Below are positions 1 to 23,109 of a DNA stretch of 36,735 nt, piece after piece. The notes under the pieces are model-generated. The model made no database searches. It had not been told where the DNA came from and saw only the letters and a list, made by a program, of their open reading frames with translations. Within the stretch, counting starts at the first letter, position 1, and the number at the start of each line of letters is the position of its first letter. This DNA is from Fretibacterium fastidiosum (lineage in GTDB: Bacteria > Synergistota > Synergistia > Synergistales > Aminobacteriaceae). The DNA is taken from positions 674,921 through 711,655 of the forward strand of contig NC_021038.1 of the NCBI RefSeq assembly GCF_000210715.1, in the 5' to 3' direction. A program made the position numbers and the translations under genes.

Positions 1-42
1 TAGGTTCCCCTCTTTTTGGTCCTTGACATGGGGACCACTATA
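1..42 (-). repeat. IS-like terminal repeat, left copy
   Basis: Positions 22-41 are the exact reverse complement of 2094-2113 (20 of 20), and similarity continues outward for about 12 more bases with a 2-base gap. The repeat resembles the ends of IS3-family elements, with a TAGTGGTCCCC start followed by an A-rich stretch; this family assignment is from memory. Its inside would lie to the left, beyond the window. It carries a TTGACA hexamer (23-28) pointing outward, into the GNAT fragment. The GNAT homology begins immediately after it. Confidence 0.6.
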
Positions 43-213
43 GACAACTGGCTGATGCTGAAGCGCGTGGAGATATCGGTCTTCACGGACAACGGACGGG
101 CCGTCCGCCTGTACGAGTCGCTGGGGTTTGTCGTCGAGGGGACGAAGCGGTATGCCGCCGTCAAGAACGGCGTCCACGCCGACGAGTACCTGATGGCACG
201 CTACGGGAAGTAG
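43..213 (+). pseudogene. GNAT N-acetyltransferase, 3' fragment
   Basis: About 56 residues match the C-terminal end of GNAT acetyltransferases, which transfer acetyl from acetyl-CoA to amines. The visible features are a DNWL..L.RVE strand, the N.RA..LYE.LGF helix that closes the acetyl-CoA site, and a closing ADEYLMAR motif. A full protein is about 170 residues, so the N-terminal two thirds, including most of the acetyl-CoA loop, is missing. The frame is closed upstream by a stop at 1-3, and homology stops exactly where the IS-like repeat ends. A TTG at 16 would give a 65-residue product, but its first residues come from the repeat. I read it as a gene cut by an insertion. Confidence 0.7.
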
Positions 214-230
214 CGGCGGTTTCTTTGCAG

Positions 231-266
231 AAAAAGCCGGCCCGCTCGAACGGAGGACCGGCTTTT
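231..266. terminator. Bidirectional intrinsic terminator
   Basis: AAAAGCCGG (232-240) pairs perfectly with CCGGCTTTT (258-266) around a 17-base loop. The T-run on each strand lets it end both the GNAT fragment (plus strand) and the TOPRIM gene (minus strand, stop at 277). Confidence 0.8.
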
Positions 267-276
267 CTCAAGTTTG

Positions 277-879
277 TCATGCGCTCGATTTCCTCTGTCT
301 CTCATGCTTATCGAGCGAGTCACAAAATCGACCAAATTCCGTACACGCGTCCCGAACCGATTGCGGTGCGTCATCGCATCTCGCGTCTCGGCTACGGCAC
401 TCGGTATACTTTTCAAAAAACCTTTTGCCATAATGGCCCGCTTTGGCTTTCTTGTATCTTTGCTTGTAGTCCTTGATCTCGTCGACTGCTTCTTCTCCAT
501 CGATCCAGGCAAACCACGTTTCGATATTCCTTTTGGGAACAAGACACAAAACCCGATCCTCTTTGCAGATTTTCGGTAGTCCCCTGGAGTGCAGCTCCTC
601 ATTCCACTGTTTTACGCGATCCGACAGATTGGGATCGTTTTTGTCCGCGTCGCTTACGAGCACAAGAAAAACATTCTCACGGTTTTTACGAATCTTGTCC
701 AATGCCTCGGGCAAACGTTCTCTCACATGTCCCTCAGCGGAGCGGGCTCCGTCGACCAACGGATAGGTGTCGAATTTCCTATCGCCGATCCCTAAAGACT
801 TAAAAAATGTGCGTACGAAATAGTTGTGCTCCTGATCCTCACAGAGTATGAACACTCGATATCTAGAAAGGTCAAGCAT
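277..879 (-). CDS. TOPRIM-like putative nuclease, partner of ATPase
   Basis: This 200-residue protein starts with a hydrophobic strand leading into E14 (VFILCE). A second hydrophobic strand ends in D77-A-D79, and a PKRNIETW motif follows at 115-122. The E...DxD order is that of the TOPRIM fold used by OLD, RloB/AbiLii and DUF4435/DUF4276-type nucleases. From memory, the NIETW motif occurs in small proteins encoded beside AAA ATPases in defence loci. The tail is rich in Lys and Arg. Its start overlaps the ATPase stop by 8 bases, so the two are probably translationally coupled and act as a complex. Nuclease activity and the anti-phage role are inference. The exact family is not certain. Confidence 0.65.
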   Translation of the reverse strand: MLDLSRYRVFILCEDQEHNYFVRTFFKSLGIGDRKFDTYPLVDGARSAEGHVRERLPEALDKIRKNRENVFLVLVSDADKNDPNLSDRVKQWNEELHSRGLPKICKEDRVLCLVPKRNIETWFAWIDGEEAVDEIKDYKQRYKKAKAGHYGKRFFEKYTECRSRDARCDDAPQSVRDACTEFGRFCDSLDKHERQRKSSA

Positions 880-2005
880 TGTCGCACTCCTCCCACTCCA
901 TCAGGCGGAGCTTGTCGACGAGGGGGTCGTCATCGTCATCGGTACGCCGCTCGACGACCACTTTCGGCGGAGTCCCCTCCAGAGAGAGAATCATTGCGTT
1001 TTTATTGTGCCAATTCAACGTCCGGGGATTATGCGAGATGATAATAAATTGTATGTCCCGCTCCTCCCAGGCGTCGTTCATCGCCTCCAGCCAAGGCTGT
1101 AGCTCGCTAAGAGCCAAAAAGTTCTCCGGTTCGTCGATAAGCACGGTGCTTCCGTTGGGGATATTGGCGAGGATCGAGTAGAGCGCGAGAAGGGTTTTCT
1201 GACCGTCCGACAGCTCATTGAATTCGATATCGTTTTCCCTTCCGTTGAACTCAACCTTCACGGCAAGCGCGTGCCAATCGCCTTTTTTGATGTAGCGGAT
1301 ATCGACAAGGCCGGGGATGAAATATTTCGACTGCTCAACGACCCTAGCTTGTCTCATGAGCTGCTGAGTTGCACGCAGGAAACGCCACGCGGCAAAGTTT
1401 TCTCCGTACAAGGCAAGAGTTTCCATCGGTTTTTCCACATCCTGCTTCATCAGCGCGGGAACGAGGTGAAACGCATACAGCGACGCAACCTGCTTGCCAA
1501 ATCTCCGGATTCGGCTGTTGTTGCTCGAACCGACGACCAAGCCGGAGCGCTTCCAGTCACTTCTGAAGGCTAGCTTTTTCTCGTCGTCCGTGAACATTTC
1601 TATTCTGCCTTCCTGAAATCGCAACAACAACGCCTCACCCAGCCGAAGCGACTCGTGTTGAACCCTGGAGATTTTTTCCAGGAAATTGTACCGAACCGTC
1701 AAATCATAGATGTAAAGCGGCTGTTCATCAGATTCAATCTCAAGCTTGACAGACATTTCTCCCCAGCCGTTCTCCTCGGTGCACCACCTACAAAACGTGC
1801 GGAAAGGAAAGGCGTCCTCCACCGAGCATGCGATGGTGTCCGAGTGATCGGGTATGGCGAGAAATCGCGTCAGGGCGTAGACGATTTCAATGACAGACGT
1901 TTTCCCGCTGCCGTTTGGGCCGCACAACAGATTGACCCCACCGTCCAGTTCAAGAGCAAAGTTACGAAACAACTTATAATTGTGGATCTCCAATTTCCGG
2001 ATCAT
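872..2005 (-). CDS. AAA/ABC-type ATPase of a putative defence module
   Basis: This 377-residue SMC/OLD-type ATPase opens with MIRKLEIHNYKLF, the usual start of AAA_15/AAA_21 proteins. Walker A is GPNGSGKTS (29-37), the ABC signature LSDGQ (265-269), Walker B TVLIDEPE (287-294, D291 and E292), and the switch His325 lies in SHNP. All ATPase motifs look intact. The ORF is open 7 codons further upstream, but AGGAGG lies about 10 bases before the ATG at 2005, which I chose. It precedes the TOPRIM gene and overlaps it. The layout recalls PARIS (AriA/AriB), AbiL and Septu pairs, in which an ATPase senses phage and licenses a nuclease; the function here is inferred. Confidence 0.75.
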   Translation of the reverse strand: MIRKLEIHNYKLFRNFALELDGGVNLLCGPNGSGKTSVIEIVYALTRFLAIPDHSDTIACSVEDAFPFRTFCRWCTEENGWGEMSVKLEIESDEQPLYIYDLTVRYNFLEKISRVQHESLRLGEALLLRFQEGRIEMFTDDEKKLAFRSDWKRSGLVVGSSNNSRIRRFGKQVASLYAFHLVPALMKQDVEKPMETLALYGENFAAWRFLRATQQLMRQARVVEQSKYFIPGLVDIRYIKKGDWHALAVKVEFNGRENDIEFNELSDGQKTLLALYSILANIPNGSTVLIDEPENFLALSELQPWLEAMNDAWEERDIQFIIISHNPRTLNWHNKNAMILSLEGTPPKVVVERRTDDDDDPLVDKLRLMEWEECDNA

Positions 2006-2082
2006 GCGTATCCCACCTCCTGACATACCTCGTAGCGTCAGTTATGCAAAGAAAACGCTGATTGAATCTATGAAGTATCCCA

Positions 2083-2112
2083 ATGGTACCCCAATAGTGG
2101 TCCCCATGTCAA
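2083..2112 (-). promoter_or_regulatory. Hybrid promoter candidate from the IS-like end
   Basis: On the minus strand a perfect TTGACA (2107-2112), carried by the IS-like repeat, lies 18 bases from TACCAT (2083-2088), about 80 bases before the ATPase start. IS ends often carry outward -35 boxes that create hybrid promoters. The -10 is a moderate match. Confidence 0.4.
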
Positions 2113-2126
2113 GAACCCCAAAAAGG
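2094..2126 (+). repeat. IS-like terminal repeat, right copy
   Basis: This is the inverted partner of the repeat at 1-42, identical over 2094-2113. The inside would run rightward, but the IS427-like element begins only about 13 bases further on, so nothing more of the element remains. The two copies bracket the GNAT fragment, terminator, TOPRIM gene and ATPase. Confidence 0.6.
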
Positions 2127-2138
2127 AAGAAGAGTTTA

Positions 2139-2216
2139 GGGTGTGTCATCGATTGACGAAATATGGACAGCGACAGTAAAGAAAGTAGCCTCTAGGTTGA
2201 AGTTAGGTGAACTTAT
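2139..2216. repeat. Long inverted repeat, left arm of the IS
   Basis: This arm of about 78 bases aligns with the reverse complement of about 3040-3112 at roughly three quarters identity, with small gaps. Matching blocks include GTGTGTCATC, ATTGAC, CAGTAAAG, GGTTGAAG and AACTTA. IS427-group terminal repeats are usually much shorter. Confidence 0.7.
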
Positions 2217-2242
2217 AATTGTCAGGGGAGAAAAGCACTCAG

Positions 2243-3043
2243 ATGACACGCCGTTACGCTTTGCGGGATGACCAATGGGAACGCATCAAGGATTTTCTGC
2301 CGGGACAACCCGGCTATGTTGGTGCCAACGGCAAGGATAACCGCCTTTTCGTTGAAACGGTCTTATTCCGTTATCGGGCCGGAATCCCATGGCGAGACCT
2401 TCCTGAACGTTTCGGAGATTTTCGCGTCGTCCACACTCGCTTCTCCCGGTGGTGCAAGAGCGGAGTCTGGAAACGTATCTTCGAGACGTTGGCGGAAGAC
2501 GCCGACAACGAATATGCCATGATTGATTCGACCATTGTCCGCGCTCACCAGCATAGCGCGGGGGCAAAAAAAGCAGCCCGGATGAGGAAGCCATTGGTCG
2601 CAGCCGTGGAGGTCTCAGCACCAAAATTCATGCGACGGTTGATGCGCTGGGAAACCCCACAAGCTTTTTACTGACGCCTGGCCAGGCTCACGATCTTGCA
2701 GGAGCGGATCAGCTTTTGCCCGAAGTAAGGGCGAAAACGGTAATCGCGGACAAGGGTTACGATGCTCAAGAACGGGTTATCGGCCTCTTGGAGAAGTCCG
2801 GGAAGAAAGCTATTATCCCGTCTAAGAGCAATGCAAAAGAACCGCGTATTTTCGATGAGCGGGATAAAGACCTTTACGGAGCCCTTCAATTTGATTGAGA
2901 TTGATTGAGGACTTTTTGCACGCTTGAAACAATATCGAGCAATAGCAATAGCAATACGTTACGACAAGAGAGCTGTTCATTTCCAGAGCGCTGTTTATCT
3001 CGCCGCTATTATTGTGGTATGGCTTATTTGTGACACGCCCTAA
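2243..3043 (+). pseudogene. IS5/IS427-type transposase, degenerate
   Basis: OrfA runs 2243-2674 (MTRRYALRDDQ, first catalytic Asp in MIDSTIVRAHQH). A run of seven A at 2566-2572 is a classic -1 slippery site. Slipping there continues into OrfB (EEAIGRSRGGLSTKIHATVDALG, then second Asp in VIADKGYD) up to a stop at 2896-2898. The region that should encode the catalytic Glu (HLIE.FFARLKQYRAIA) follows but is out of frame: bases around 2888-2915 are partly duplicated, a T appears lost before the Leu-Lys-Gln block, and an Ile-Ala repeat is expanded. The third DDE residue is therefore not translated. A further start exists at 2219 (TTG), but the ATG at 2243 matches the family start better. Confidence 0.8.
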
Positions 3044-3112
3044 GTTAACCTATCTTCAACCTGGGATCTACTTTACTGGCTCTATCCAAATTTTGTCAAT
3101 TGATGACACACC
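3040..3112. repeat. Long inverted repeat, right arm of the IS
   Basis: Partner of the arm at 2139-2216. Its inner end overlaps the last codons of the decayed transposase reading frame. Confidence 0.7.
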
Positions 3113-3113
3113 T

Positions 3114-3149
3114 CAGTATAGCACCAAGCGCCTGCTGAAGCTGAAGTAG
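3114..3149 (+). other. Possible 3' gene remnant next to the IS
   Basis: An open frame runs out of the IS right end as QYSTKRLLKLK and stops at 3147-3149, just before a strong terminator. This is what remains if an insertion removed the body of a gene convergent with the S9 peptidase. It is too short to identify and could be chance. Confidence 0.25.
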
Positions 3150-3160
3150 GGCGAAAATCG

Positions 3161-3192
3161 AAGGGGCGGGCGCCGAAGCACCCGCCCTTCTT
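3161..3192. terminator. Bidirectional intrinsic terminator
   Basis: AAGGGGCGGG (3161-3170) pairs with CCCGCCCTT (3181-3189) with one bulged G, followed by TCTTTCTT on the plus strand and a T-rich stretch on the minus strand. It lies 23 bases past the S9 peptidase stop and ends that gene. Confidence 0.75.
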
Positions 3193-3214
3193 TCTTAAAG
3201 CGCTCTTAAAGCGC

Positions 3215-5191
3215 TCACACCCTCTCCTTCAGCCACCTCGCGATCTCCTGCAGCCGGGCCAGGCGCGGCTGGGGTCGGCCTGAGCGGGATAGTTCGTGGT
3301 TCTCGCCCTTGAAGACGCACATGCGGGACTCCACACCTCCACGCTTCAGTGCCGTGAAGAGTTGCAACCCCTGCCCCAGGTCGCAGCGGTGGTCCTCGTC
3401 GGAGTGGATGACGAGCGTCGGCGTCCTCATCTGGTTGGCGTACTTCAGGGGCGAACGGTCCCACAGGGTCTCCACGCTGTCCCCAACGTCCGCTCCGTGC
3501 TGGTCCGGGTCGAAGTAGTAGCCGATGTCGGTCATGCCGGTCATGGAGACCCAGTTGCAGATGCTGCGCTGGGTCGCTGCAGCGCGGAAGCGGTTGGTGT
3601 GCCCGATGATCCAGTTGGTCATGAAGCCCCCGTAACTGCCGCCCGTCACGCCCAGGCGGTCGCCGTCCACAAAGGGCAGGGTCTGAACGGCCCAATCCAC
3701 GAAGGCCATCAGGTCTTCGTAGTCCACGGTCCCGTACTTGCCCCGGATGTCGTCAAAGCCGCCGCCCTTGCCGTCGCTGCCCCGTGGGTTGCAGAAGAGG
3801 ACGGCGAACCCCTCCGCTGCCCAGCACTGCATCTCGTGGACGAACACGTCGCTGAAGGTCGCCTTGGGGCCGCCGTGTATGTGCAGGATGGCGGGGTACT
3901 TCTTCCCCACCTCGAAGCCGATGGGGCGCATGTACCAGCAGTCCAGCCCATCGGGCGTCCCGTTCTCCAGTCGGACGTACTCCGGGACGCTCAGGTCCGT
4001 CCCCTCGAGGGCCGCCGTGTTCAGGCCCGTCAGGCGCCGCTCCGCGCCGTCCTCGATCAGGTAGAGCTCCTGCAGGGAGAGCCCTTCGAGGCCCACGACG
4101 ACCGCGCGTCCGTCCTTCACGTCGAAGTCGTCCACGCTGCGGAGCATCCGCGTGACCTGCACGACCGCGCCCTGCGCGTCCACGGTCGAGAGGCGGGAGC
4201 GCCAGCCCTCCGTGGAGATGAACCATGCCTTGTCCCCGTCCACGAGGAAGCTCTCCCCGATGGGGCCGATGCCGTACCGGCAGTCGCAGATGATGGAGTT
4301 GTGCAGGCTGCGATCCCAGTCCGGGGTCAGGCAGCGGGGGGCGGCGCCCTCCCGCGCCATGAAGAACCGCTTGTTCTCGTTGAGGCCGTGGCGCTTCATG
4401 TCCGTGCCCGCCAGCAGGACCTCCCCCTCGAAGAACGCGGCGCAGCCCCAGGCGTACTGCCCCTGCGGCAGGCGCTCCTTCAGGGTCTTCGAGCTCAGGT
4501 CGATCTCCCAGACCCCCGTGGTCAGCGGCATGACGTCCTCGTAGTCCACCCCCGTAAGGAGGACGCGCGTTCCGTCCGGCGACGGGCGCACCTGTCGGAC
4601 GTCCATCGTCTCCGGGGTCAGGTCCTCCAGCTTAGAGCCCTCCAGGGTGAGGAGCGAGAGGCGGGACCTCTGCTGGGCCGTGAAGCCCTTGCCGTTGGAG
4701 TTGAAGGGTATCTGCTGAAAGACCATGTAGTCCGCGTCCTCGAAGCGCTCGCCCTTGCGGGGGTCCGTGGTCTTCAGGAGGAGCCTGCCGTCCCCCAGGT
4801 CCCACAGGGCCGTGACCGTGCGAGGCAGGGCGGCCAGGAAGCGGGCCTCGCCTCCGGCAACGTTCATGCGGTAGAGCCGGGAGTCCCTGGGCGCGTCCGG
4901 GGCGGGTTCGGGCTCTCCGGGCTGAGGGCTGCGGCCGCTGACGAAGATCAGGTCCCGCCCGTCCTGCGACCAGCAGAAGGCCCGCTCCGTCCCGGAGAAG
5001 GTCAGCTGGGAGGTTTGGGCGGACGTCAGGTCGCAGAGCCAGAGGCAGGAGAGGTAGCGGTTGCCCTCAAGGTCCCCCTGGTGTACGGCGAAGGCCGCCT
5101 TGGCCCCATTCGGCGAGATGCGCGGCGAGGAGATGAAGCGGTACTTCATGAGGTCGTGAAACTGAACGCGATTGAGCTCGTTTTTCTCCAT
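3215..5191 (-). CDS. S9 family prolyl oligopeptidase/acylaminoacyl peptidase
   Basis: This 658-residue serine peptidase cleaves short peptides or removes acylated N-terminal residues. The N-terminal 400 residues are a WD40-like beta-propeller (ISPNG, WSQDGRDL, PSPDGTRV repeats) that gates the active site. The C-terminal alpha/beta hydrolase has the nucleophile Ser519 in GGSYGGF, Asp600 in HSDEDHRC and His632 in ENHELSRSG, the complete S9C triad. The length is normal for the family. No signal peptide is seen, so it is probably cytoplasmic and salvages amino acids, in keeping with a peptide-fermenting lifestyle. A GAGGGAG ribosome site precedes the ATG. It stands alone, with terminators on both sides. 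Confidence 0.92.
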   Translation of the reverse strand: MEKNELNRVQFHDLMKYRFISSPRISPNGAKAAFAVHQGDLEGNRYLSCLWLCDLTSAQTSQLTFSGTERAFCWSQDGRDLIFVSGRSPQPGEPEPAPDAPRDSRLYRMNVAGGEARFLAALPRTVTALWDLGDGRLLLKTTDPRKGERFEDADYMVFQQIPFNSNGKGFTAQQRSRLSLLTLEGSKLEDLTPETMDVRQVRPSPDGTRVLLTGVDYEDVMPLTTGVWEIDLSSKTLKERLPQGQYAWGCAAFFEGEVLLAGTDMKRHGLNENKRFFMAREGAAPRCLTPDWDRSLHNSIICDCRYGIGPIGESFLVDGDKAWFISTEGWRSRLSTVDAQGAVVQVTRMLRSVDDFDVKDGRAVVVGLEGLSLQELYLIEDGAERRLTGLNTAALEGTDLSVPEYVRLENGTPDGLDCWYMRPIGFEVGKKYPAILHIHGGPKATFSDVFVHEMQCWAAEGFAVLFCNPRGSDGKGGGFDDIRGKYGTVDYEDLMAFVDWAVQTLPFVDGDRLGVTGGSYGGFMTNWIIGHTNRFRAAATQRSICNWVSMTGMTDIGYYFDPDQHGADVGDSVETLWDRSPLKYANQMRTPTLVIHSDEDHRCDLGQGLQLFTALKRGGVESRMCVFKGENHELSRSGRPQPRLARLQEIARWLKERV

Positions 5192-5850: not shown

Positions 5851-8514
<2,664 letters not shown>

Positions 8515-8608
8515 CCGCGGATAGACGCCAGCAAGTGACCCGGCCCTTCCTGGGCCGTCGGAGGGGCTGAGCCCTTTCTCAGAAGCTGAGCTCTTTCCTC
8601 GATAACCT

Positions 8609-8636
8609 GACGGCCCCCTTGATGGGGGCCGTCTCA
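8609..8636 (+). terminator. Intrinsic terminator of the Synerg-CTERM gene
   Basis: GACGGCCCCC (8609-8618) and GGGGGCCGTC (8624-8633) form a perfect 10-base stem with loop TTGAT, followed by TCAATTGTT. A smaller hairpin (GGCCC/GGGCC) lies about 60 bases upstream. Confidence 0.85.
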
Positions 8637-8640
8637 ATTG

Positions 8641-8796
8641 TTGACGCAGGAGGGCCGGCGGGCAACGGGGAACGACGCAAGAGAGAAGATCGACATTGTG
8701 AAGCTCAATGCAGAGATTGAGAAAATTGTTGCGCGCGAACAGGTCCTCCGTGACGAAATTGAGAAGATTATCGCGGAAATCGAGGTGGACAGATGA
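8641..8796 (+). pseudogene. hsdM: Type I restriction-modification M subunit, 3' fragment
   Basis: The last 51 codons of an HsdM-like methyltransferase remain: KIDIVKLNAEIEKIVAREQ followed by VLRDEIEKIIAEIE, the coiled-coil C-terminal end of the family. The whole catalytic domain (normally about 450 more residues) is absent. Homology begins only about 7 bases after the terminator hairpin of the upstream gene, so the deletion joint lies there. The stop overlaps the rhuM start as ATGA, the tight coupling of an intact hsdM-rhuM-hsdS operon. Confidence 0.75.
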
Positions 8797-9871
8797 AAAA
8801 AGACGAGCGCGAAATCAGCATCGTCCGTTCCTCCGCTGCGGAATACCTCACTTTTATTACCGCTACCGGAGAAAGCGACGTAAACGCGGTGTACTTTGAT
8901 GAAAATGTGTGGCTGACGCAAAAGATGATGGGGCTTTTGTATCATGTGGAAACCCACACGATCAACTATCACCTGAAAAAAATATTTGCCGATGGCGAGA
9001 TCGACGAAAGCTCAGTTATTCGAAAATTTCGAGTAACTGCCGCAGACGGCAAGAGCTACAATACCAATCACTACAATTTGAGCGCCATCATTGCCGTGGG
9101 CAATAAAGTGGACTCACCCCGTGCGGTGCAGTTTAGAAAATGGGCGAACCGTATTATTGAGGAGTTTACCGTGAAGGGCTTCGCGATGGATGATGAGCGC
9201 CTGAAAAACGGCGGCACCGTCCTGACGAAGGACTATTTCAGGGAACAGTTGGAGCGTATCCGTGAGATTCGTCTTTCGGAGCGTCGGTTTTATCAAAAAA
9301 TTACAGACATCTATGCCACCAGCATTGATTATGACGCCAAAGCGGAAACGACAAGGCTGTTTTTCGCACGGGTGCAGAATCAGCTTCATTGGGCCATTCA
9401 CGGCGAAACGGCGGCGGAGACCATCTATCGCCGTGCCGACAGCAGCAAAGAGCACATGGGGCTGACCACCTGGAAGGATGCGCCAGGCGGCAAAATACAG
9501 AAATTCGACGTGGTGATGGCAAAGAATTATCTGACGCAGGAAGAGCTTTCCGCAATGGCGAGAATCGTCAACGCCTATCTGGACTTGGCGGAATTGCGGG
9601 CCGAGGAAGAAGTCCCCATGACCATGGAGGATTGGGCGGAACAGTTCGAGGGGGTCCCCTCCGGCTGAGCAGAAAGGAAATCCTGGTTCATGCGGGGAGC
9701 ATTTCCGCAAAAATTGCCGAACGGCACGCCCTGACCGAGTTTGAAAAATACCGCGTCCGGCAGGACCGGCTGTATCAAAGCGACTTTGACCGAATGCTTC
9801 TTGAGGAAGCAGCGCCAGGTTTGCCGGCAGCTACCGAAACGGAAACCGAAAAAGACGGTGAGAGCGAATGA
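8793..9871 (+). pseudogene. RhuM family protein, frameshifted
   Basis: RhuM-family proteins are commonly encoded inside type I restriction operons; their biochemical role is unsettled. The first 291 residues are in one frame (WLTQKMMGLLY, NYHLKKIF, YNLSAIIAVG, then a helical region ending MEDWAEQFE). The frame breaks in GGGGGTCCCC (9650-9659). The rest (LSRKEILVHAGSISAKIAE, FEKYRVRQDRLYQSDFD) continues in another frame to 9871. Adding one base there gives an unbroken 359-residue protein of normal length, so this may be a recent indel or a sequencing error. The stop overlaps the hsdS start as ATGA. Composition is AT-richer than the flanks. Confidence 0.8.
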
Positions 9872-19002: not shown

Positions 19003-20163
19003 CTAAAAAAACGACTGACGATAGACGATATTACCGTCTTTAAGCGTCATAAGTGGTACAAATACTTTATTGCCTTGGCAGGACCCACCCCACCAATCAT
19101 AATACACCTCGCTTGTTTTTTGAACGTCCATTAAACAGATATCCGCTGGTTTCCCAACCTCCAAGGTGCCGGCACGGTCCAAAATACCTAGCGCTTTTGC
19201 AGGAGTGTAGGTAACAGCTTTGAGGATGTCCAAGTCCTTCATTCCTGCCGCAGAGTTTACGCACAGAGCATGTATCAGAGAACATCCTGGTTTGACGTAC
19301 ATGCTGTTCCTCACGATATCTGAGCTGATAATATCAGGAAAGAAGTCATCACTATATGCGTTTCTCAGATTTTTAAACGACCAGTGAACGCGCCCATGGC
19401 AGTTATCCATCCAAATACCTCGATCGCGTGCCTGCCTTAGTATGCTGCGAACCTTATTATCTTTGTTAAAAATAGTTTCTCGGTGCGTTTGCATGACATG
19501 CGAAAGGATATCCCCTGTGCGCAGCGCATCCAAGATGGCTTGTAACGTGACATTATCTGGCAAATCGTCATAATGCACGTCTACGATACAGGGAAAACCT
19601 CTTGCCGCTTCAACGTTTTTCGCGATTTCAATAGTGCGCAACAGTGGTTTAATGCCAAAGTCACCTAGGGTCGCACGACACATACGGACCTTCAATCCCC
19701 GAATGACCTCTGGGTATTTTACAGCCAGCTTTATAATTTCGGTTTCGTTGAAGTCCGCCGGGTTGTGATCCTCATCACGCTGAAGGCCACCATTATGAAC
19801 GCCATAAGGAGAAACGTGTATATAGGCCAGTACATTTGTGGTATACCGTACAATATTGTAACGATAAAATCCCTCAAAATTTGTCCAGCCGCTGGTGCCT
19901 GCGTCCACCGCCGTTGTAACACCCATGGGAATGCACAATAAGTCAGCATTAGCACCAATGTTGCTGTTATTGTAATTCAGGTGAACGTGCTCGTCAACTA
20001 ATCCGGGGAGGACGTATTTGCCAGAAGCGTCGATAATAAACCTTGCCTCACTCCCTTCATCTGGTGGTGCAATGAAGCCATCTTTGATGCATATGTTCCT
20101 CTGGCTGGTTTGCATTGTTTGAAAATCAATGACTATCCCGTTCTTGATAATGTGGTCGTACAA
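19003..20163 (-). CDS. Amidohydrolase/deacetylase family metallohydrolase
   Basis: This 386-residue amidohydrolase-superfamily enzyme resembles the dihydroorotase-like PRK09237 group. The metal site shows HVH (H59, H61) after GLVDE, a GLKVRM lysine segment, VDVHYDD, LSHVMQTHRE and a late Asp in ISSDI. The PADICLMDV end with a final beta-sandwich strand is standard. It probably hydrolyses an amide, lactam or acetyl bond in the compound brought in by the TRAP system encoded just upstream; true dihydroorotase activity is unlikely in this context. TTG start behind AAGAGG. Visibly AT-richer than the flanks, like the rest of its operon. Confidence 0.85.
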   Translation of the reverse strand: MYDHIIKNGIVIDFQTMQTSQRNICIKDGFIAPPDEGSEARFIIDASGKYVLPGLVDEHVHLNYNNSNIGANADLLCIPMGVTTAVDAGTSGWTNFEGFYRYNIVRYTTNVLAYIHVSPYGVHNGGLQRDEDHNPADFNETEIIKLAVKYPEVIRGLKVRMCRATLGDFGIKPLLRTIEIAKNVEAARGFPCIVDVHYDDLPDNVTLQAILDALRTGDILSHVMQTHRETIFNKDNKVRSILRQARDRGIWMDNCHGRVHWSFKNLRNAYSDDFFPDIISSDIVRNSMYVKPGCSLIHALCVNSAAGMKDLDILKAVTYTPAKALGILDRAGTLEVGKPADICLMDVQKTSEVYYDWWGGSCQGNKVFVPLMTLKDGNIVYRQSFF

Positions 20164-20186
20164 AACTCAACGCCTCTTTTCTGCTT

Positions 20187-21476
20187 CTAGCGCGCCATCA
20201 TAAGGCGCGGAATCGTTAGCGCGATCTCTGGTATGAAAGACGTTGCCAAAACCATAAGGTACAAAATGATAACGAAAGGCATGGCGTTTCGACTTAGGGT
20301 TGCGATGCTCTGCCCTGTAACGGGCTGTGCCGCGAAAAGGCATAGACCGAAGGGCGGTGTTGCCTGCCCGACGGATAGGTTAAACACGATAATGCACCCC
20401 AAGTGTACGGGGTCAATGCCAAACTTTAAAGCTATAGGATAGACGATTGGTGCGATAATTAAAATGATGGGGCCCGCATCCATAACCATGCCAAGGATAA
20501 GCAGGAGTATGTTGAGTGCCAGAAGAAATTCCGTCTTTGTAGTGATAGCACTTGTTATGGCGTTAGACAACATAACGGGAATGTTATTACGTGTTAATAC
20601 GTAAGAGAACAAAGTCGCCGCCATGATGATCAACATAACGTTAGCCGTCGATTTTACGCTTTCAATCGCGATTTGAATCAATCGCTTCAGTTTTAGCTCA
20701 CGATAGACCCCACATGAGACGAAAAGGCCGTAAATGCACGCTATGGCAGCTGACTCTGTTGGTGTGAAGATGCCAGCGTAAATGCCTCCAAGGACAATAA
20801 TGGGCATCATCAAGGCCCACATGGCGTCCTTCGTCGCATCAAGAAATGCATTGAAGCGAAAGGGAGCTCCTTTTGGCATTTTATGCCGCAATGCATAGAA
20901 ATAGGCATATAGACACATGGCTAAACCACCAAGGAGGCCGGGCAGCACGCCGGACATAAGAAGGCGAGCCACAGACGTGTTTGTCGTTGTACCGTAGACA
21001 ACGAACACGATGCTGGGAGGAATAACAATGCCCAGCGTACCACCGACGACAGGTAACGTTGCAGCATAACCTTTTTTATAGCCATCTTTAACCAGTTCCG
21101 GATAGAAGATGGTGCCGATCGCTGCTGTTGTAGCAACGGACGAGCCAGACAAGGCCGCAAAAAACATACAGGTAATGATTGCAACGATGGACATGCCACC
21201 ACGGATAAAGCTGGTGATAGATTTTGCAAAGGCTATCAGTCGTTTGGCAATACCGCCATGTTGCATGATAGAACCAGCCAGCAGAAAGAAGAATATGGCC
21301 AGCAAGGCATATTTCTCGCTGCCAAGTTCCATCTTCTGAGCGAGAAAAGAGAGAGAAATGCCCGGTATTGACAGACATGCAACCATGCTGGAGAGGGCCA
21401 AGGACCACACTACGGGGACGCCAATCGCTAGAGTAACAGCGAAGCAAAGAGCAAGGAAAAACATGGAAATGGTCAT
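20187..21476 (-). CDS. dctM: TRAP transporter large permease DctM
   Basis: A 429-residue membrane protein of the DctM family, about 12 segments, that couples sodium entry to substrate import. Motifs include GGIAKRLIAFA, ALSGSSVATTAAIGTI, GTLGIVIPPSIVFVVYG, TPTESAAIACIYG and VGQATPPFGLCLF. The start overlaps the dctQ stop as ATGA. The amidohydrolase follows after 23 bases. Confidence 0.92.
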   Translation of the reverse strand: MTISMFFLALCFAVTLAIGVPVVWSLALSSMVACLSIPGISLSFLAQKMELGSEKYALLAIFFFLLAGSIMQHGGIAKRLIAFAKSITSFIRGGMSIVAIITCMFFAALSGSSVATTAAIGTIFYPELVKDGYKKGYAATLPVVGGTLGIVIPPSIVFVVYGTTTNTSVARLLMSGVLPGLLGGLAMCLYAYFYALRHKMPKGAPFRFNAFLDATKDAMWALMMPIIVLGGIYAGIFTPTESAAIACIYGLFVSCGVYRELKLKRLIQIAIESVKSTANVMLIIMAATLFSYVLTRNNIPVMLSNAITSAITTKTEFLLALNILLLILGMVMDAGPIILIIAPIVYPIALKFGIDPVHLGCIIVFNLSVGQATPPFGLCLFAAQPVTGQSIATLSRNAMPFVIILYLMVLATSFIPEIALTIPRLMMAR

Positions 21477-22021
21477 GATTGCGCTTGCTCCATTTCTTTC
21501 TCGGAATTACAAGAAGTTGAAGTGTCGATTCCCATCAATACGCACGTATTTTCAAGAACGTTGATAACTTTATCAAACAGTACCAGCCCAAAGCCCATGG
21601 GAAGCCATAAATAAATGTAAAAATAATTTAGACGAATAGAGGAAAGAAACTGTGGGAATTTACGGGCATGTTTCAGCAATGCGAATCCAGAAACGATAAA
21701 AACTACCAGGGCTACTATGGACAGCGCATCGGTTAGGATATGGAGGGCGGAGTTAGTCCTCTTATTCTTAAATTTCAGGATGTCGACTTTTGTTTCGCTG
21801 TCTGTTTTGACAGCCAGATTTGCGCCAAGCATAATCAAGATGAAGAAGAGAAGAACGCTGACTTGTTCAGACCATGCAAGGCTTGAGTGCAGGACATATC
21901 GGCAAAAAACCTGGGCGCCGTTAATAATCACCATGGCTATGACGCCAAAAAGGATCAATATTTTCTGAATAGAGTACAAAAAATTGTCTGCTTTTTTCAG
22001 TCTAACAAGTAGCTTGAGCAT
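21473..22021 (-). CDS. dctQ: TRAP transporter small permease DctQ
   Basis: A 182-residue four-helix membrane protein. A central AWSEQVSVLLFFILIMLGANLAVKT-like region carries the DctQ family W.EE/SEQ motif. It links the binding protein to DctM. It follows dctP after a gap with a perfect hairpin and overlaps dctM by 4 bases. Confidence 0.88.
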   Translation of the reverse strand: MLKLLVRLKKADNFLYSIQKILILFGVIAMVIINGAQVFCRYVLHSSLAWSEQVSVLLFFILIMLGANLAVKTDSETKVDILKFKNKRTNSALHILTDALSIVALVVFIVSGFALLKHARKFPQFLSSIRLNYFYIYLWLPMGFGLVLFDKVINVLENTCVLMGIDTSTSCNSEKEMEQAQS

Positions 22022-22056
22022 TCTAAAATAGCCCCCCTTCGCTTCCTCTGTTTTGA

Positions 22057-22086
22057 ATCCCTGATGAGGTACACCGCATCAGGGAT
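22057..22086 (-). other. Intercistronic hairpin between dctP and dctQ (AT-rich operon)
   Basis: ATCCCTGATG (22057-22066) and CATCAGGGAT (22077-22086) form a perfect 10-base stem with a 10-base loop. It lies between the binding-protein gene and the permease genes, where partial termination or 3' end protection would give more binding protein than permease. Confidence 0.6.
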
Positions 22087-22119
22087 ATGAACATGAAAGG
22101 ACGCTGTATATGGACGAGA

Positions 22120-23109
22120 TTACCGAATGTTACGGATGCTCTGCACTAGATCGGCATACTCCGGATAGCTGTTGTATACAGAAGCGGTGGCAGCCTGGAG
22201 ATCCGCCTTACTGATTGTTTCAATGAAGGAACACTCTTTTTCTTGAATCAGCGTTTTCAATGCATCAGCGTTAATATCTACAGTCGCCTTACGGAAGATA
22301 GGTGTGCATTCCTTGGCACAGTTGCGGATCAATTCGAGTTGCTCCGAGCTGACTTTTGAGGCAACTTGAGGGGACATCATGAATACAGCTGGAGTAAAGG
22401 CATGTTCTGTCTTGACGATAATGGGATTAACCTCCCAGATGTTGGAGCTTAGCACCTGGGTAAAAGGATTTTCCTCGCCATCGACGGTCCCCTGTTGCAG
22501 GGCAGTGTACAGTTCGCCCCAATCCATAGGAACGGCATCAGCACCTAAGGCCTGAAATAGGGCTTGGTGGATCGCAGACTGCATGGTGCGAATACGAAAG
22601 CCTTTTAGATCCCCGATACTGTTAATCGGGTGTTTTTTTGAGGTCGTGACGTTGCGGAATCCAAGCCCCCACCATGCTAGAGCCTCTATGCCATTGTCTG
22701 CCAAGGCGCTGGTCAATTGGGTTCCGACCTCCCCGTCTAGCGTTTGCCATACGTGCTCATAATCCTCGAACAAGAAAGGCAGGTCAAAAATGGAAACCGT
22801 ATGGCAGAAGTTTGCTATAAAGGTACTGGCTGCGGGGGCCAGATCGATCGTACCACTTTGGACGCCAACGACGTATTCTGACACGGTCCCCAATTGCCCA
22901 TTAGGAAAGATATCTACGATAATTGAACCATTGGACCTCTGCTCAAGCACATTCTTGAATTCAGTCATGCAAGTCCCGAAGAGGCTCCCCTCCGGTGTAT
23001 CTGCATGGGCCAACGTAAGGTGTATCGCGTCAGCAGCCTCAGTTGCAGGACATACAGCAGTCATGAAAGCAATCGCCAAAATTACCGTGCTAAATTTCCA
23101 TCTTATCAT
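22120..23109 (-). CDS. dctP: TRAP transporter substrate-binding protein DctP
   Basis: A 329-residue DctP-family protein with a signal peptide ending near ATEAA. The mature protein has IHLTLAHADTPEG, then GFRIRTMQSAIHQ with the carboxylate-binding Arg, and VPMDWGELYTALQQGTVDGEENP, all family hallmarks. AGGAGGGG precedes the ATG. It is the first gene of the AT-richer operon. In the 66 bases to the LarA-like gene upstream I could not assign a promoter with confidence. Confidence 0.92.
   Translation of the reverse strand: MIRWKFSTVILAIAFMTAVCPATEAADAIHLTLAHADTPEGSLFGTCMTEFKNVLEQRSNGSIIVDIFPNGQLGTVSEYVVGVQSGTIDLAPAASTFIANFCHTVSIFDLPFLFEDYEHVWQTLDGEVGTQLTSALADNGIEALAWWGLGFRNVTTSKKHPINSIGDLKGFRIRTMQSAIHQALFQALGADAVPMDWGELYTALQQGTVDGEENPFTQVLSSNIWEVNPIIVKTEHAFTPAVFMMSPQVASKVSSEQLELIRNCAKECTPIFRKATVDINADALKTLIQEKECSFIETISKADLQAATASVYNSYPEYADLVQSIRNIR

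Follow-up and report, generated by a model that had tools for sequence, protein, structure and literature searches.

We found, in a 36,735-nt stretch of the Fretibacterium fastidiosum genome (hereafter the window), a pair of overlapping genes encoding an ABC ATPase and a small TOPRIM-like putative nuclease. The gene pair is real, and with a probability of roughly 0.7 its two genes form an anti-phage module of the type that joins an OLD-ATPase to a TOPRIM protein, and belong to a family without a dedicated model in PADLOC-DB 2023; the defensive role, judged from context, is probable. In our reading the pair is a variant of the PARIS/HEC-01 type that is so far missing from the catalogues. An earlier note on this DNA had proposed a candidate mobile defence cassette, and that proposal gains support from the pairing of the two genes, their co-evolution, the homology of the small protein to HEC-01B and DUF4276, the BREX genes around some relatives and the IS ends around the window copy. 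If this is confirmed, the ATPase-gated TOPRIM defences would gain a family with clear boundaries and members in about 18 phyla.

Table 1. Features of the window around the gene pair (window coordinates)
Feature	Positions	Strand	Evidence or remark
IS3-type terminal inverted repeat	9..41	+	End of the copy probably within the N-run left of the window
GNAT acetyltransferase gene, 3' fragment cut by the IS end	42..213	+	Pfam Acetyltransf_4, 7.8e-4
Rho-independent terminator-like hairpin 3' of the TOPRIM gene	232..268	-	Sequence; core stem 254-241
TOPRIM-like putative nuclease, 200 aa	277..879	-	hhalign to HEC-01B, AlphaFold2, weak DUF4276 match
ATPase stop overlapping the TOPRIM start by 8 bp	872..879	-	Sequence
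OLD/Rad50-type ABC ATPase, 377 aa	872..2005	-	Pfam, motifs, Shine-Dalgarno, ATPase clade
Matching inverted repeat, left over from a second copy of this IS type; bears a TTGACA box	2094..2126	-	33 nt, 88% complementary to 9-41
IS4/IS5-type element, frame-broken transposase, 42-nt terminal inverted repeats	2140..3112	+	

The ATPase matched the Pfam families AAA_21 (1.5e-17), AAA_15 (2e-14) and SMC_N (3e-14) and carries a Walker A motif (GPNGSGKT, residues 29-36), the signature LSDGQ (265-269), a Walker B motif (VLIDEPE, 288-294) and an H-switch (ISH, 323-325). Its start is best placed at position 2005, where AGGAGGT closely precedes the ATG; the alternative ATG at 2026 is without a Shine-Dalgarno-like site. 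The ATPase stop (874-872) and the small-gene ATG (879-877) fall within the 8 bp common to both genes, the small-gene ATG is preceded by its own GGAGGAG, and translational coupling across the overlap is probable. The small protein contains E14, D77-x-D79 and PKRNIETW at 115-122. Downstream of its gene, the core stem of the hairpin lies on the minus strand with the tail CCGGCTTTTT, inside a longer repeat (about 232-268). The claims of the earlier note about this segment, namely intact Walker A, LSDGQ and Walker B in the ATPase, an 8-base gene overlap, an E...DxD arrangement with PKRNIETW in a 200-residue protein and a downstream terminator, were all borne out, and the acidic residues proved conserved in an 80-member alignment.

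Relatives of the small protein were collected by scanning GTDB species contigs with PKRNIETW-like and LCED-like peptide patterns, which returned 196 relatives, mostly from MAGs, of which 80 were kept. The 80 span about 18 phyla, including Synergistota, Cyanobacteriota, Thermodesulfobacteriota, Myxococcota, Pseudomonadota, Chloroflexota, Planctomycetota, Spirochaetota and Acidobacteriota. The distribution is patchy, since among 188 Synergistota genomes only 7 were matched by the protein and 8 by the family profile. Homologues occurring apart from the ATPase had been named in the earlier note as evidence against its reading; we found the ATPase directly upstream on the same strand in 79 of the 80 loci, a result strongly in favour of that reading; in the exception (L094) the frame upstream is shorter and gave no ATPase match. 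With both genes kept at 79 of 80 loci, the pairing is beyond chance. The junctions are mostly overlaps, of -8 in many relatives and of -4 or -14 in most others. Across 63 loci, the pairwise identities of the ATPases and of the small proteins were correlated at 0.85, compared with a null maximum of 0.16 in 2000 permutations, which shows that the two genes are inherited together, in part because of how the species are related.

In a tree of 70 ATPases, 34 of them from the window family (the window and 33 relatives), the window-family ATPases formed one clade (100/99). The partners of HEC-01B (100/99), RloB (100/100) and DUF3226 (100/95) formed clades of their own, and the DUF4276 partners grouped weakly. 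At most loci of these other small-TOPRIM families an ATPase also stands upstream, so the layout is common and the families are distinct. The ATPases of the window and of a Synergistaceae relative (L030) share a long branch and make up a divergent subgroup. A C-terminal ARGW is near-invariant in the family ATPases; it reads LMEW in the window ATPase (about 872-900) and EMEW in the L030 sister.

To relate the small protein to other families, we compared profiles with hhalign. The window family aligned with HEC-01B at 91.8% (E 7.5e-7, score 49) with the catalytic columns in register: E14, D77/D79 and E120 align with the E, DxD and E that are invariant in HEC-01B. The values for other families were 33% for DUF3226, 11% for DUF4276, 10% for RloB and 0.1% for DUF4435. 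Column-shuffled versions of the HEC-01B, DUF3226, DUF4276 and RloB families reached at most 2% (HEC-01B at most 1.8%) with scores of at most 21, and reversed versions stayed below 1%. The acidic residues also fall in similar register with DUF4276 and RloB. Because HEC-01B itself matches DUF4276 (96.4%, E 1.3e-9), the window family joins a HEC-01B/DUF4276 group. Against Pfam, the small protein matched DUF4276 only, at 7.7e-4 and 20.2 of 30.2 bits, below the gathering cut-off; such weak DUF4276 matches occur in 15 of 80 relatives. The PADLOC models gave no match to the small protein. The HEC-01B model PDLC04202 was matched weakly by 34 of 80 relatives taken singly (best 1.1e-6) and found nothing in the window genome (G000), and the window-family profile recovered none of the HEC-01B loci. 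The RloB profile had no match in the window genome.

HEC-01, a PADLOC candidate (HEC-01A ATPase plus HEC-01B), shares with the window pair two genes with the ATPase upstream of a protein of about 200 aa and homologous small proteins with aligned E, DxD and E-x-W columns, and pairs of the two kinds stand side by side at one locus (L108); unlike in layout, the partner ATPases of HEC-01B and those of the window family are separate clades. HEC-01 proper was rejected on this separation and on the blank PDLC04202 search of the window genome. DUF4276-type pairs, including MAD3-MAD4 of MADS, have the same layout, are weakly matched by the small protein and are neighbours of a family member in L024, whereas the window protein stays below the Pfam cut-off and its ATPases keep to their own clade. 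PARIS (AriA OLD-ATPase plus AriB TOPRIM) likewise has separate ATPase and TOPRIM genes, and its working principle is likely the same (PMC12409363, PMC12839542); the window protein differs in not being a DUF4435 protein (no Pfam match), and PARIS was rejected as a home in the absence of an AriB (DUF4435) partner. AbiL (AbiLi plus AbiLii/RloB) also combines an ATPase with an RloB-type small protein, and the best PADLOC match of the window ATPase is AbiLi (8.5e-21). The small protein, however, has no Pfam RloB match, its hhalign value for RloB is low yet above the shuffles, and its ATPase lies apart from the RloB partners; AbiL was rejected as there is no RloB partner above cut-off and the ATPases fall outside the AbiLi-type clade. 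Septu was rejected because the partner shows no HNH match (PtuB), and Gabija/class 1 OLD because the ATPase and TOPRIM parts are unfused and no helicase is adjacent. The likeness to PARIS, AbiL and Septu drawn in the earlier note thus stands for an ATPase/TOPRIM-type pair as such, but not for the specific partners or for the ATPase clade. A literature search of limited scope returned no paper on DUF4276, DUF3226 or HEC-01.

In PARIS, detection of phage proteins by the ATPase sets free a TOPRIM nuclease directed against tRNA (PMC12409363, PMC12839542); the AriB TOPRIM cuts tRNA and is inactive as E26A (PMC12409363). OLD-type ATPases can also serve non-defence roles (Cran1, PMC12796447). By analogy with PARIS, ATPase-gated nuclease release and abortive infection are expected for the window family, and we infer complex formation, gating, nuclease activity, substrate, trigger and defence along these lines. 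The ATPase and the TOPRIM protein would form a complex in which the ATPase keeps its partner inactive; on sensing an infection cue, the ATPase would free a metal-dependent nuclease, in which E14, D77, D79 and perhaps E120 may bind a divalent metal. The freed protein would cut nucleic acid, host RNA such as tRNA being somewhat likelier than DNA, and the cleavage would arrest growth of the infected cell. Inside BREX operons the pair may act as a backup effector, and in the window genome it is perhaps transcribed from a promoter partly supplied by an IS end. The fuller reading is tentative and somewhat short of an even bet: a separate, widespread ATPase/TOPRIM immune family, marked by a PKRNIETW active-site signature and an ATPase clade of its own, whose target is a specific cellular RNA and which BREX operons have taken up as a built-in backup. 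A serious contender is that the module is the same and its TOPRIM protein is a DNase, Gabija/OLD-like, which the ATPase directs to phage DNA ends or replication intermediates. The TOPRIM domains of OLD and GajA are DNases (PMC10568477), and by profile the ATPase resembles Rad50 and RecF; a small TOPRIM subunit encoded on its own, however, is closer to the layout of PARIS (an RNase) than to fused OLD or GajA, and a helicase partner is missing.

The neighbourhoods of the 80 loci bear on the defensive reading. The L076 locus runs from pglX through a small gene, the ATPase, the TOPRIM gene and pglZ to brxL; at L103 the end of pglX is followed by the pair, pglZ and brxL; and at L040 the pair is followed by pglZ and brxL. 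At L108 (both pairs within 319-3497) the HEC-01 pair lies just upstream of window-family frames that look broken, and at L024 (both pairs within 6048-9766) the DUF4276 pair lies just downstream. Among the 133 nearest neighbours, PADLOC at 1e-20 matched 8 mad3-like ATPases, 4 mad2-like genes, 3 BrxL and a few methyltransferases, a minority overall; some of the mad3 matches are generic ABC-type ATPases, and the mad3 matches should not all be read as defence genes. In a small control set of 74 distant genes from the same loci, single PADLOC matches were scattered. Linkage to known defence systems is thus clear in a minority of loci (L040, L076 and L103; L024 and L108). Missing linkage to defence islands was another observation that the earlier note would have held against its proposal: BREX or a second pair was found at these five loci, but most of the 80 have otherwise ordinary neighbourhoods with no obvious defence island. 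TOPRIM-linked OLD-ABC modules have been reported as BREX backup effectors (PMC12839542), and the window family, compared with that class by its description, resembles it in having members inside BREX operons. This position makes the backup-effector idea directly testable.

The window copy itself is bordered by IS sequences. The two inverted-repeat matches compare with 0.01 expected in shuffles. The 19-bp core of the repeat occurs exactly three times in the genome, and because the third occurrence (G000:C1:2456064) terminates an element that encodes an rve transposase, an IS3-type element is likely. The right repeat is cut by the IS4/5-type element, and the left one abuts an N-run (L029:13106-14921) amid ankyrin-repeat-like genes, where an IS was probably masked or left unassembled. 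The IS debris noticed earlier was found as IS3-type ends and a broken IS4/5-type element. Between the IS3-type ends lie the GNAT fragment, which has a 79% identical stretch at G000:C1:474185, and the gene pair, whose G+C is 0.51 compared with 0.61 in the rest of the window; a mobile cassette between IS3-type ends is probable. A promoter-like site (TTGACA at 2112, TACCAT at 2083, 10/12) lies partly inside the IS end, and a hybrid promoter with its -35-like TTGACA from the IS end is possible, though not above chance taken alone; 5 such sites were found here against 2.2 +/- 1.6 expected, only weakly above chance. The IS-derived promoter of the earlier note therefore holds as to the TTGACA inside the IS end, but such sites are barely more frequent than chance. 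The flanking IS ends, together with the gene overlap and PDB entries whose titles call AriA an antitoxin, would also suit a toxin-antitoxin-like pair that persists on mobile DNA by securing its own maintenance, in which the ATPase is the antitoxin and any defence is secondary. We consider this rather unlikely: pairs are embedded in BREX operons and adjoin other defence-candidate pairs, and searches of plasmid, phage and viral-contig collections found no homologue, hence no copies in the plasmid collection, a result that also weighs against the main reading.

Conservation of the small protein centres on its putative active site. In the 80-member alignment E14, D77 and D79 are each present in 79 sequences and T121 and W122 in all 80; position 120 is E in 73 and Q in 7. 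The near-invariant positions include L12, C13, E14, D15, V52, R64, L72, D77, A78, D79, P115, I119, T121, W122, E134 and Y138. Conservation of E14 and IETW is partly selected, since both lay in the search patterns; D77, D79, E134 and Y138 lay outside them. An AlphaFold2 model from a deep alignment (pLDDT 92.1, pTM 0.88) has strands at 8-13, 36-38, 70-75 and 110-113 with helices in between, E14 after the first strand, D77/D79 after the third and E120 opening the helix after the fourth. TOPRIM proteins generally place their acidic residues in this way, and the model follows the TOPRIM order of alternating strands and helices as well as its placement of the E and the DxD motif. Foldseek against the PDB gave no match at E <= 0.001, the top ones being generic alpha/beta folds; against BFVD it gave a weak match to an RloB-like phage/viral protein (probability 0.98, E 5e-3). 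An earlier model from 6 sequences was weaker (pLDDT 78.7) and found generic folds only, plus retron Eco2 at low probability, and PDB sequence searches with the small protein gave no convincing match. Given these Foldseek results, the TOPRIM-like assignment draws on profiles, motifs and predicted topology rather than on a direct structural match. A small protein unlike any TOPRIM structure would have told against the earlier note, and on this point the results are mixed, with TOPRIM order and motif placement in a high-confidence model on one side and the lack of a significant PDB match on the other. The missing PDB match and the Q at position 120 in 7 of 80 would fit a structural or signalling Rossmann-like partner that is no nuclease, which we regard as quite unlikely: three acidic residues stand at TOPRIM positions in 79 of 80, where they line up with the HEC-01B residues and, in similar register, with the DUF4276 and RloB ones. 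Our own HEC-01B, DUF4276 and RloB small-protein profiles found no convincing solved structure, so that a single structure from the window family would throw light on fold and active site across the group.

A role outside defence, in which a RecF/Rad50-like ATPase and a nuclease serve DNA repair or recombination, would suit the likeness of the ATPase profile to Rad50, RecF and SMC and the many loci amid ordinary genes. The very patchy distribution, the IS-bounded window copy and the BREX embedding make it very unlikely.

Related genes and other features were seen in the same genome. One locus (L188, G000:C1:428500-433000) has, between two similar solute-binding-protein genes, a DUF3226 gene preceded by the end of an AAA_15-type ATPase, and another (L189, G000:C1:1260000-1265000) holds a DUF4276 gene remnant with an internal stop. 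Within the window, DctP/DctQ/DctM transporter genes stand beside an amidohydrolase (19006-23109), and dctM and dctP, at a G+C of 0.48-0.49 compared with 0.61 for the window, were possibly acquired. A long protein encoded at 5851-8514 has the C-terminal end GGCDAGFGGLALALGAAFLLRRKA, which resembles a Synergistetes-type C-terminal sorting signal.
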